Positions 6,411-13,120 of a stretch of 21,383 nt of DNA are shown here, piece by piece. Under the pieces are notes generated by a model that saw only the letters and a program-made list of their open reading frames with translations, was not told the origin of the DNA and ran no database searches. Numbering within the stretch: position 1 is the first letter of the stretch; every line of letters starts with the position of its first letter. The DNA is from a virus. Position numbers and translations under genes: made by a program. The stretch covers positions 1 to 21,383 of the IMG/VR virus record IMGVR_UViG_3300047548_001346; one strand, 5' to 3'.

Positions 6411-6486
6411 TGGTGCGCGAGGAGGGATTCGAACCCCCGATAAGACCGTTATGAGCGGCCGGCATTAACCGCTATGCTACTCGCGC
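6411..6486 (-). tRNA. tRNA with CAU anticodon (Met, or Ile2 if lysidine-modified)
   Basis: A full cloverleaf on the minus strand: acceptor GCGCGAG/CTCGCGC, D stem GCAT/ATGC with GG in the loop, anticodon stem GGCCG/CGGTC with loop CTCATAA, T stem GGGGG/CCCTC with loop TTCGAAT, discriminator A and encoded CCA. The acceptor starts with a G-C pair, so it is not an initiator. The loop CTCATAA is shared by elongator Met and by Ile2 (AUA-reading) tRNAs, which cannot be told apart here; an AUA-reading tRNA would suit this AT-rich genome. Confidence 0.93.
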
Positions 6487-7220: not shown

Positions 7221-7297
7221 TGGTACGGACTGAGGGACTCGAACCCTCAAAACTCAGATTTTAAGTCTGATATGTATACCTATTCCATCAAGTCCGC
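7221..7297 (-). tRNA. tRNA-Leu (UAA) lacking the long variable arm
   Basis: Minus-strand cloverleaf of 77 nt: acceptor GCGGACT/AGTCCGT (first pair G-U), 3-bp D stem ATG/CAT with a Leu-like loop (GGAATAGGTATA), anticodon stem TCAGA/TCTGA with loop CTTAAAA (anticodon UAA), T stem GAGGG/CCCTC with loop TTCGAGT, discriminator A73 and encoded CCA. The variable region is just GTTTT, although bacterial tRNA-Leu is class II with a long variable stem. The last 10 bases of the HNH reading frame (including the stop) overlap its 5' end. Confidence 0.85.
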
Positions 7298-7713
7298 TTC
7301 AGTGATTCAGAAATTTTCTTTTTGTGTTCTGCTGATTTAGGTATTCCTTTATTAGCTTTTCCACCTTTTGACCAACCAGAACTTACGTTATTTTTCAATA
7401 TTTCTTTTGCTTTGTCAATCCCATATTTTTGTACCAAACCTTCCCATGGTGAAACCCATTTTTTGGCTTTTCTAGCATCTTCTACATTTTCTTTTCTTGT
7501 GCCCCAATATAAATGTTTTGGATTTGAACATTTCTCATTATTACATGCATGACATAAATCAACTTTTGATGGCATATCAGTACATAAAAATTGTGCCAAA
7601 ACACCTCTATGAACTGTACTATTTCCACCTCTTTCAATACATTCTTCAGTCAAATCAATATGAATAGTTCTTATTTCTCTAGATTCTTTTATCCAATCAG
7701 ATACTTTAATCAT
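7288..7713 (-). CDS. HNH homing endonuclease with NUMOD3-like C-terminus
   Basis: 141 aa from the ATG at 7713, chosen because AGGAG sits 6 bases upstream; an in-frame extension to 7737 has no such site. 'DLCHACNNEKCSNPKHLYWGT' (about residues 52-72) is an HNH_3-type core with C54, H55, C57, C62, N64 and H67. The C-terminus 'NKGIPKSAEHKKKISESL' is a NUMOD3-type DNA-binding repeat found in phage homing enzymes. The final codons and stop are encoded by the first 10 bases of the tRNA-Leu gene, so tRNA and protein coding sequence overlap. A TATAAATA octamer lies upstream. Free-standing enzymes of this type cut alleles that lack them and spread by recombination. Confidence 0.88.
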   Translation of the reverse strand: MIKVSDWIKESREIRTIHIDLTEECIERGGNSTVHRGVLAQFLCTDMPSKVDLCHACNNEKCSNPKHLYWGTRKENVEDARKAKKWVSPWEGLVQKYGIDKAKEILKNNVSSGWSKGGKANKGIPKSAEHKKKISESLKRT

Positions 7714-7727
7714 GTTATCTCCTGTTA

Positions 7728-7772
7728 GTAGACGCATGATTATTTATAATCAGACTCTGCCTGTTGGTCTAC
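7728..7772 (-). promoter_or_regulatory. Late-type promoter with nested inverted repeats (tRNA-linked HNH gene)
   Basis: TATAAATA on the minus strand at 7748-7741 lies within the 16-base perfect palindrome TGATTATTTATAATCA (7737-7752). Around it GTAGAC (7772-7767, minus) can pair with GTCTAC (7733-7728), ending 4 bases before the CAGGAG ribosome site. The arrangement is similar to the SD-masking modules elsewhere but the stem stops just short of the ribosome site. Confidence 0.5.
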
Positions 7773-7803: not shown

Positions 7804-8202
7804 TTACTTTTTTAGAAACGTCAAATGTTTTTTATGTATGCGGCACATGATCCAACTGTTATAAAAATCATCACGTTCTAATACATTATTGTCAAATTGA
7901 AGTTTTGCTTCATAATATCCAAATTCACTTTTTGATTTACAAAGCATTAAGATGTCACGGCGAAAGTTTTCTTCACCATTTTTATTGACATCTTCTTGAA
8001 GTTCTTTATTTGAACCGTAATATGTTTTCCAATCCGATTCAACTTTAATTCTTTTTTTCTTTCCCTTGACTTGTTTAGTTTTAGAAAAGTAAAAGTTTTT
8101 CTTACCGATATACTTTTTATTATTCAATAAATTTGTTATCTGGTAAACGAATCCTATATATTCACCAATGGATTCGTAAGGTTCATTATTATAATACCAC
8201 AT
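7804..8202 (-). CDS. SegE-like GIY-YIG endonuclease-family protein
   Basis: 132 aa. The N-terminal region contains 'IGFVYQITNLLNNKKYIGKKNF': GFVY (17-20) and YIG (31-33) replace GIY and YIG with typical spacing, as in the SegE-type GIY-YIG family of T4-like phages. A basic insert (KQVKGKKKRIK) and 'WKTYYGSNKELQEDV' follow, with the usual phage pattern 'YYGSN'. No clear ribosome site; the start follows the stop of the membrane protein gene by one base, so coupling is likely. It may be an active homing enzyme or a degenerate relative, and lies right before the HNH gene and the tRNA. Confidence 0.75.
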   Translation of the reverse strand: MWYYNNEPYESIGEYIGFVYQITNLLNNKKYIGKKNFYFSKTKQVKGKKKRIKVESDWKTYYGSNKELQEDVNKNGEENFRRDILMLCKSKSEFGYYEAKLQFDNNVLERDDFYNSWIMCRIHKKHLTFLKK

Positions 8203-9591: not shown

Positions 9592-10500
9592 CTATTTCCA
9601 ACTATCTAGTATTTGTCGCTTTAATTCGGGTTGTAATGGAACATAATCTAACTCATCTGCGTATGTGTCACCATTTTCAAATGCCCACCTGAAAAAGTTC
9701 AATGCGATGTTTTGATCATTTTCATTGGTAGGCTTTCTATGCATTATAATGAATGTTGGTGCAGTAATAGGCCAGGAGTTATTTTGAAATGTTGACTTTC
9801 CTGCTCTTACTACAACATCATTAATAACTATCGTCGTATACTTTAAATTATTCTGCTTTGCATATGCATATTCTACGTATCCGATAGAATTTCTAGCTTG
9901 TGCAACATTACCTGCAACGCCTTCATTACCTCTCGCACCAACACCGACTGGCCACTCCAATGCAGTTCCAGTTCCTACTCTAGTTCTCCATTCTTCAGAT
10001 ACAGAAGAAAGATATTTTGAGAAAATATATGTTGTACCTGAACCATCAGAACGTCTAACCACAGAGATATTTGTATTTGGTAAATTCACATTAGGATTTA
10101 ACTTTCTGATTCTTTCATCATTCCATCTAGTAATTTTACCAAGGTAAATATCAGCTATAACTGGGCCTGTTAGATTTAAATCAGAAACACCGTCTAGATT
10201 ATAAACCAACACGTTACCACCAATAACAGTTGGGAATTGAAATAGGTTATTCCTATTCAAAATTTCTTCTGTTAGGGGCATATCTGAAGCGCCAAACGTT
10301 ACAGTTCTTGCTAGAATTTGTTTAATACCCGCTCCAGATCCAATACTTTGGTAATTGATCTGAATGCCAGTTTGCCTTTTATAAGCATCTGTCCATTTTG
10401 AATAAACTGGAAATGGAAAAGTTGCTCCAGCTCCAGTTATACTTTGTGCGTTTGCATATGTTGCAAATATCATAGAAAAAACAAAAATTATAAATCTCAT
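9592..10500 (-). CDS. pstS: Phosphate ABC transporter substrate-binding protein PstS
   Basis: 302 aa. Signal peptide MRFIIFVFSMIFATYANA, cleavage before QS. The mature protein opens with 'ITGAGATFPFPVYSKW', and later shows 'SIGSGAGIKQI' and 'RSDGSGTTYIFSKYLS', the three phosphate-binding loops of PstS. It would be exported to the periplasm and feed phosphate to the host PstCAB transporter, helping nucleotide and DNA synthesis under phosphate limitation; this is the usual explanation for pstS in marine phages. The start overlaps the nrdB stop (ATGA), so it is tied to nucleotide metabolism genes. No Pho-box-like repeats were found next to it, and as an internal operon gene it is unlikely to have its own PhoB control here. 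Confidence 0.95.
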   Translation of the reverse strand: MRFIIFVFSMIFATYANAQSITGAGATFPFPVYSKWTDAYKRQTGIQINYQSIGSGAGIKQILARTVTFGASDMPLTEEILNRNNLFQFPTVIGGNVLVYNLDGVSDLNLTGPVIADIYLGKITRWNDERIRKLNPNVNLPNTNISVVRRSDGSGTTYIFSKYLSSVSEEWRTRVGTGTALEWPVGVGARGNEGVAGNVAQARNSIGYVEYAYAKQNNLKYTTIVINDVVVRAGKSTFQNNSWPITAPTFIIMHRKPTNENDQNIALNFFRWAFENGDTYADELDYVPLQPELKRQILDSWK

Positions 10501-11794: not shown

Positions 11795-12437
11795 CTGTAT
11801 ACTTCATCTCGTACTCAAACCTATCATCATCGGATAAAATCCATCGAGGTTGATTCTCAACAGACCAATATGTTGTTCCTAGTCTTCTATCAATAACAGT
11901 ATTTCCCCACTTTGTTACAAAAGATGGTTCAAATACTTTTACTCTATTATTAGGTTGAATAGCGTAATTACCATCATCTAACTCAATAACATGTCCGCAT
12001 TTATGTTGACCAGGAATCTGTGAAAAACCAACGTCAATAATATTTGCGTCTGCCTGAAGCCAATCTAATGTGAAAAGATATTTTCCGCTCTTTTCATTCT
12101 TATTTCTATCAAAGTAAACCATCTTCTTTTCTGATAGAAAGTCATATTTATTAACAGAAACATATGGAGAAAATGAATCCCATAATACTAACTGAAATAA
12201 ATCTTCCTGTGGTGTATCTGGTTTTGAACAAAATGCATGAATTGGCATTCTCCACCAGAGTCCACCATCTTCCATGACAAAATGAAATAATGGTGCTCGG
12301 TGTGGCACAGATGCCACACCGATAATAATGCAAGGTAGATAAGTGTCTGTAATTTCAAACTTTTCAGGTCTATTTTGCAAAAAATTTGATCTTACATAAC
12401 ATTCTATTGGTGGAATGTTTGCATTAATAAAACTCAT
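11781..12437 (-). CDS. Conserved phage protein of unknown function, 218 aa
   Basis: I do not recognise a named domain. The protein is rich in aromatic residues and beta-strand-like segments: 'PLFHFVMEDGGLWWRMPIHAFC', 'MVYFDRNKNEKSGKYLFTLDW' and 'HVIELDDGNYAIQPNNRVKVF' are the most distinctive stretches. The many Trp and Asp/Glu residues suggest a compact soluble beta protein. Its start overlaps the HNH stop as ATGA, so the endonuclease gene sits neatly between nrdA and this gene. Residence within the nrd operon suggests early or middle expression. Confidence 0.75.
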   Translation of the reverse strand: MSFINANIPPIECYVRSNFLQNRPEKFEITDTYLPCIIIGVASVPHRAPLFHFVMEDGGLWWRMPIHAFCSKPDTPQEDLFQLVLWDSFSPYVSVNKYDFLSEKKMVYFDRNKNEKSGKYLFTLDWLQADANIIDVGFSQIPGQHKCGHVIELDDGNYAIQPNNRVKVFEPSFVTKWGNTVIDRRLGTTYWSVENQPRWILSDDDRFEYEMKYTDESN

Positions 12438-13120
12438 TTAAATCTACCCTTTTCATCTTTATTCATTTTTAATCTTCCCAATTTCCATCCTTCTGGACAC
12501 TTATCTTTGTAAGTTTCTTTTATATCATTATTATACCATTTTTTATTTTTAGCAGCTTTTTTTGGAACTTTTATCATACCATATGTATTGTTACCTATAA
12601 AAGGTTCCGGATCAATTCCATTTTTATAAAACTTATTATAAAGGTGATATGAAATTCCTGTATATTTTTTTAATTCATCATAACCAATATATAAATTACC
12701 TTTGTATTCAATGGTTTTTAATTTTTTCTTTCTTATATTATCTTTATGTTTTTCACTTTTAGAAACATTTTTACGAGATTTACTCATTTTCATTTTAGAT
12801 TCGACTGTATGTTTCATTCCAGTATGATCTAAAGAATTTTGAATAGCAAATTTTCTTTTAACCCATCCATATGATTTATTATTTCTATTACCCATCATAT
12901 TAGCTGCATAAATTAATTTAGGTTCGTTTGGGTATATTTTAATTAATAACAAATGACATATGTAATGTTCTTCTGGTAACAAATGAACAAGATTATCTTC
13001 GTCATCAGTTCCATTCATACATTTTGGGATGATATGATGACGCTCATAATATGTTTGTTCATTTGTTACTCTATTTTTTGCTTTTTGTATTAAAGTTTCA
13101 TAGATTTTTTTATAATTCAT
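12434..13120 (-). CDS. HNH homing endonuclease inserted next to nrdA
   Basis: 228 aa. 'YERHHIIPKCMNGTDDEDNLVHLLPEEHYICHLL' (partly H28-H29, N43, H52) is a textbook HNH core of the phage free-standing type. Downstream a lysine/serine-rich region (about 104-134) looks like a NUMOD-type DNA-binding linker, and the C-terminal 'YDELKKYTGISYHLYNKFY' a small helix-turn-helix-like segment. Placement between nrdA and downstream nrd-operon genes parallels T4 mobE, which lies between nrdA and nrdB. It has its own TATAAATA octamer, and its ribosome site and start codon lie in an 11-bp hairpin. Base composition is more AT-rich than the neighbouring nrdA, consistent with later insertion. Confidence 0.9.
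   Translation of the reverse strand: MNYKKIYETLIQKAKNRVTNEQTYYERHHIIPKCMNGTDDEDNLVHLLPEEHYICHLLLIKIYPNEPKLIYAANMMGNRNNKSYGWVKRKFAIQNSLDHTGMKHTVESKMKMSKSRKNVSKSEKHKDNIRKKKLKTIEYKGNLYIGYDELKKYTGISYHLYNKFYKNGIDPEPFIGNNTYGMIKVPKKAAKNKKWYNNDIKETYKDKCPEGWKLGRLKMNKDEKGRFK

Follow-up and report, generated by a model that had tools for sequence, protein, structure and literature searches.

According to a recent review, tRNA-Leu keeps its long variable arm everywhere save in animal mitochondria (PMC9976931). The E. coli synthetase LeuRS depends on A73, the A15-U48 pair, G18G19, and A20a, is indifferent to the anticodon and to the sequence of the long arm, and still leucylates E. coli tRNA-Leu constructs from which the arm is missing (PMC9976931), while SerRS reads the long arm (PMC7609411). 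Class I-sized tRNA-Leu is already known from animal mitochondria and from laboratory constructs, and that of phage BF23 stands in the public record (tRNAL1; AJ604530). The tRNA-Leu(UAA) described here, encoded on a 21,383-nucleotide stretch of viral DNA (hereafter the window), can be set beside each of these. With class II tRNA-Leu of bacteria, such as E. coli leuZ (87 nt), it shares the anticodon UAA, A73, A15-U48, the G18G19/A20a spacing, and a 3-bp D stem, but the bacterial tRNA has a long variable arm where that of the window has 5 nt. Animal mitochondrial tRNA-Leu likewise lacks the long arm and owes its identity to A73 and A14 (PMC9976931); it operates, however, with a mitochondrial LeuRS and genome, whereas the cloverleaf of the phage tRNA remains fully paired and its T arm canonical. 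The E. coli variants without a long arm, leucylated via A73 and contacts of the D and T loops (PMC9976931), are laboratory constructs, whereas the phage form is natural. BF23 tRNAL1 and its Epseptimavirus relatives have in common with the window tRNA a length of 77 nt, a variable region (V) of 5 nt, a Leu-type core, A73, and an encoded CCA, but differ in their UAG anticodon, acceptor stem, and E. coli host and, in BF23, in the lack of an HNH gene beside the tRNA.

The window contains two tRNA genes, both on the minus strand as called by ARAGORN. The features of the locus are as follows.

7221 to 7297, minus strand: tRNA-Leu(UAA), 77 nt, with a class II-type core, a class I-sized variable region, and an encoded CCA (ARAGORN, Rfam RF00005; identical in contig L007)
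7261 to 7263, minus strand: anticodon UAA, which reads UUA, with UUG possible by wobble (ARAGORN position 35; sequence)
7249 to 7253, minus strand: variable region GTTTT, 5 nt, the final base of which, U48, pairs with A15 (sequence; calculation of V length)
6411 to 6486, minus strand: tRNA with CAT anticodon (Met or Ile2), the only other tRNA of the window (ARAGORN, Rfam RF00005)
7288 to 7737, minus strand: HNH homing-endonuclease-like ORF, 149 aa (ORF; Pfam; tblastn to phage endonucleases)

ARAGORN, a check proposed in an earlier sequence-only reading of this DNA, called a tRNA-Leu with anticodon TAA at 7221-7297 (minus strand), and the coordinates, anticodon, A73, CCA, and five-base variable region given in that reading were all correct by ARAGORN, Rfam, and the sequence itself. 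The Rfam model RF00005 matched 7224-7297 with 62.5 bits (E 1.2e-11; gathering score 29), slightly above the score of the CAT-anticodon tRNA. Written 5' to 3', the tRNA is GCGGACU-UG-AUGGAAUAGGUAUACAUA-UCAGACUUAAAAUCUGA-GUUUU-GAGGGUUCGAGUCCCUC-AGUCCGU-A-CCA. All stems pair (7 acceptor, 3 D, 5 anticodon, and 5 T pairs), the anticodon loop is CUUAAAA, the T loop UUCGAGU, and the discriminator A73; the invariant bases U8, G18, G19, U33, U54-C56, A58, and C61 are kept. The first acceptor pair is G-U in place of the usual G-C, and U72 is likewise seen elsewhere among phage tRNA-Leu, in 43% of those with a short and 30% of those with a long variable region. Folded alone, the tRNA scores only mildly better than its shuffles (z -1.84), and the strong evidence for it comes from the family model and from covariation among relatives, not from the single-sequence fold. 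A contig of 5,455 bases from a different metagenome sample (L007) is 99.85% identical to the window and carries the same tRNA, which is thus no sequencing artefact.

With 5 nt, the variable region of the window tRNA has class I size (4-5 nt) and falls short of the at least 10 nt that define class II, and the tRNA bears a leucine anticodon (TAA). Its core is not of the class I type, in which position 46 is a purine, mostly G, and 13-22 is paired: the window tRNA has U46 and unpaired G13/A22 by our own numbering. Neither broken stems nor lost invariant bases, the marks of a pseudogene, were seen. A73, left free in the search patterns, was found in all 211 short phage tRNA-Leu (100%) and in 98% of the 178 long ones, as compared to 62% of other phage tRNAs with V=5, and is present in the window. 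The window also agrees with both sets in the Levitt pair A15-U48 (99% of tRNA-Leu in the short and in the long set alike; 26% of other V=5 tRNAs; T48 in 99% of short phage tRNA-Leu) and in GGYA (G18G19, A20a) at the same D-region offset (192/211 short and 147/178 long), figures to be read with the facts that A14, A15, G18G19, and A20a were required beforehand by the patterns of both the V=5 and the free-length scans, and U48 by that of the V=5 scan, and that ARAGORN contributed many of the tRNA-Leu counted in both sets, as further members of the same arrays. Position 46 of short tRNA-Leu is more often T (59%) than G (18%), as compared to G in 75% of the other V=5 tRNAs, a bias that fits a trimmed class II core and not a swapped class I tRNA. 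Among 129 unique 77-nt short tRNA-Leu, each stem position is paired in 93-100%, with many compensatory pair types, and the family is thus under structural selection. Their core sequence marks the short tRNAs as tRNA-Leu, as opposed to class I tRNAs carrying a leucine anticodon.

Relatives were sought with an exact pattern derived from the anticodon and T arms of the window tRNA, which retrieved 18 viral contigs. Apart from L007, each of these is a phage array with 7 to 27 tRNAs, in which tRNA-Leu (UAA, UAG, CAA, and GAG) is nearly always 77-78 nt and tRNA-Ser (86-91 nt) and tRNA-Tyr (85-90 nt) keep the long arm. A leucine core pattern gave at least 120 viral matches with V=5, and with V=4 it matched 6 viral and 9 bacterial-genome stretches. 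When arm length was left free, yielding an estimate not biased by it, V was 7 nt or less in 31 of approximately 157 unique phage tRNA-Leu (about 20%), and at least one short tRNA-Leu was present at 21 of 116 loci. The V lengths of 389 unique phage tRNA-Leu, from loci among the matches listed, are bimodal with few intermediates: 211 form a short heap (4-7 nt, exactly 5 in 176), and 178 form a longer one with its peak at V=13. Phage tRNA-Ser and tRNA-Tyr at the same loci are almost all long-armed. All leucine anticodons are represented among the 211 short forms (UAG 89, CAA 55, UAA 46, GAG 13, CAG 7, and AAG 1), and the loci with two or more tRNA-Leu (n=120) include 50 with short forms only, 49 mixed, and 17 with long forms only.

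Short tRNA-Leu were found in, among other isolates, the E. coli phages BF23 and 18-1-2, the Salmonella phages PRF-SP13 and SP76, Cronobacter phage GAP31, Aeromonas phage TS3, Vibrio phage Thalassa, and Erythrobacter phage L02, and Gordonia phage Phendrix has two short and one long. Long-armed tRNA-Leu were found in T5, the cyanophages S-PM2 and S-CAM9, Pseudomonas phage Phabio, Bacillus phage BM15, and Rhizobium phage Pasto. The V=5 leucine pattern, with this core sequence, had no match in 796 bacterial genomes sampled from two phyla (398 from that of G001, reached via a Woeseia MAG, and 398 from that of G002, reached via Hathewaya). As a positive control, the free-length pattern matched all 31 bacterial genomes tried, and the only match without a long arm was a truncated copy on a contig of a MAG. 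Short-armed tRNA-Leu is thus a widespread variant in many unrelated phages and no broken gene, contradicting the published statement that confines loss of the arm to animal mitochondria (PMC9976931). No description of a short-armed phage tRNA-Leu was found in the open-access literature; subscription papers on T5 and BF23 may mention one.

A mirror case was observed in phage tRNA-Ile(UAU), which measures 90-99 nt with a variable region of 21-27 nt (L003:12285-12379, L010:3932-4023, L017:5840-5934, L059:4722-4815, L083:1266-1361, L153:7611-7705, and about 20 more). Its variable arm carries AGAT in 25/25 and AGATWA in 20/25, located in the hairpin loop, and the hairpin stems vary between phages and still pair (GCG-CCAGATTA-GCG, CAA-CAGATAA-TTG, and TCGC-CAGATTA-GCGA). 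Other long variable arms hardly ever contain the motif, which looks like a conserved recognition element. Nematode nev-tRNA-Ile(UAU) likewise has a V arm (PMC4300185).

The HNH ORF matches the Pfam families HNH_3 and zf-His_Me_endon with E values of 3e-4 to 5e-4, both under the curated cut-offs. Its last 10 bases (window 7288-7297) are also the 5' end of the tRNA-Leu, and its TGA stop corresponds to tRNA bases 8-10. This arrangement is reminiscent of T5 hegC and hegD, which extend at their 3' ends into the start of tRNA-Ser2 and tRNA-Gln2, and of Salmonella phage SP76, in which a homing endonuclease overlaps that phage's own short tRNA-Leu by 6 nt; the placement of the window ORF looks like ordinary endonuclease lodging. 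By tblastn, the window HNH was found only in the window, in the near-identical L007, and in L244, where a homologue of 46% identity is located immediately upstream of a tRNA-Leu with a long arm. Several free-standing endonuclease candidates occur within the 21 kb. A segE-type GIY-YIG endonuclease (7804-8202; Pfam E 8e-38) lies directly beyond the HNH gene, and an ORF between ribonucleotide reductase genes (12434-13120) has an HNH-like motif (ERHHIIPKCMNG) and no Pfam match. The ORF at 9592-10500 we take, by eye, to resemble the phosphate-binding protein PstS, which marine phages are known to encode as an auxiliary metabolic gene.

The sister phages BF23 and T5 carry tRNA-Leu(UAG) at an equivalent place, between tRNA-Ala and tRNA-Ser2, in short form in BF23 (L265, 3995-4071) and in long form in T5 (L276, 3625-3709), with hegC at this locus in T5 only. 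Simple deletion of the arm between the two was rejected, since the tRNAs differ throughout; this difference indicates that the locus was replaced, perhaps with hegC, and replacement by homing with co-conversion is probable.

The sequence-only reading had offered two origins for the short arm, a deletion linked to movement of the adjoining HNH gene and decay of the tRNA gene, and neither survived the comparison with relatives. Local deletion of the arm upon insertion of the HNH gene would suit the 10-nt overlap of the two, but it is scarcely credible: the HNH gene adjoins the 5' end of the tRNA, and over 30 nt separate it from the variable region; the arrays L003-L006 and L008-L020 have this short tRNA-Leu(UAA) but, by tblastn, no copy of the HNH gene, and most of them have another tRNA 3-93 nt upstream of the tRNA-Leu; BF23 has a short tRNA-Leu with no HNH beside it, and T5 a long-armed one with the HNH gene hegC next door; and the L244 homologue adjoins a long-armed tRNA-Leu. 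Related phages with the short arm and no such gene, which that reading had named as evidence against the deletion, were thus found both in the arrays and in BF23. Decay into a pseudogene, to which the non-canonical class II form and the weak G-U first pair might be ascribed, is very improbable for a tRNA with all stems intact, an encoded CCA, an Rfam score of 62.5 bits, and covariation across 129 relatives, and the short form is recurrent and constrained in length, not the outcome of random shortening. The same reading's view of the tRNA as Leu-like, short-armed, and most likely functional was supported by the intact stems, the conserved leucine core, and this covariation. The class I-sized variable region would also be expected of a class I tRNA that is specific for another amino acid, has acquired the anticodon UAA by drift, and delivers a non-leucine residue at UUA. 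We strongly doubt this, as the core (3-bp D stem, A14 A15, G18G19 U20 A20a, U48, and A73) is common to long-armed phage tRNA-Leu, the other V=5 phage tRNAs are unlike it, and short forms are present with all leucine anticodons; because LeuRS ignores the anticodon, identity follows the core. Given the anatomy, conserved determinants, covariation, and distribution observed in the present analysis, it is very probable that the window encodes a functional tRNA-Leu with a class II core and a 5-nt loop for an arm, a recurrent phage variant that is charged by the host LeuRS and reads UUA.

In a tree of the core (67 sites), arm class changes approximately 40 times, as compared to 107 times with shuffled labels. 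Arm class is clearly inherited, with repeated change, the number of which 67 sites cannot fix. In addition, 22 of 186 short tRNA-Leu are closer to a long tRNA-Leu than to any short one, and together these results make several losses, gains, or swaps likely and disfavour a single origin of the short arm. The window tRNA belongs to a tight UAA group (nearest short form differing at 5 sites, nearest long form at 15) and thus inherited the short form. Rather unlikely, in our estimate, is that arm loss was repeatedly selected and not merely tolerated, as an escape from long-arm-reading nucleases, toxins, or modifying enzymes of the host or of rivals, or from the risk of mischarging by SerRS across hosts. 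Such selection would fit the recurrence (approximately 40 parsimony changes versus 107, on a tree of low resolution), the tight 5-nt length, the absence of the short form from the sampled bacteria, and the mixed arrays (49/120 multi-Leu loci), but a dispensable arm in phages prone to deletion would lead one to expect all of these as well. Selection would supply a further reason for the functional, host-charged tRNA-Leu favoured above, with which it is compatible and which it does not exclude.

The pattern among phages, tRNA-Leu without the arm and tRNA-Ser with it, follows the rules of the synthetases: SerRS needs the long arm and bacterial LeuRS does not, leaving phage tRNA-Leu free to lose it, although the measurements behind those for LeuRS come mainly from E. 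coli, which may not be the host of the window phage. Function is directly attested for a relative: the tRNA-Leu(UAG) of BF23 (77 nt, V=5) is the parent of an effective amber suppressor, made by changing its anticodon to CUA (GenBank note, AJ604530; inserted residue unstated). In the window, UUA is the commonest leucine codon (176/534; 33%), consistent with a supply role for tRNA-Leu(UAA). We infer leucine charging of the window tRNA itself by the LeuRS of its host, and likewise the host and the benefit of the tRNA. The tRNA would be transcribed together with its phage neighbours and the transcript trimmed to the encoded CCA; the host LeuRS would then add leucine, reading A73 and the corner of the D and T loops (A15-U48, G18-G19, and A20a) and neither a long arm nor the anticodon, and the charged tRNA would decode UUA, the top leucine codon of this AT-rich phage.

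Phages often break the long-arm rule, and for leucine only, as biochemistry predicts from a LeuRS that does without the arm and a SerRS that needs it. They provide a natural experiment on the dispensable parts of tRNA, and T5 and BF23, long and short at an equivalent place, form a ready laboratory pair. The finding raises the question of why bacteria retain an arm that their LeuRS can spare. If arm loss is a selected trait, the phage tRNA-Leu would work with almost any bacterial LeuRS and would be host-range-robust or defence-proof, and what it escapes may be cross-charging by SerRS or a tRNA-cleaving or tRNA-modifying defence.
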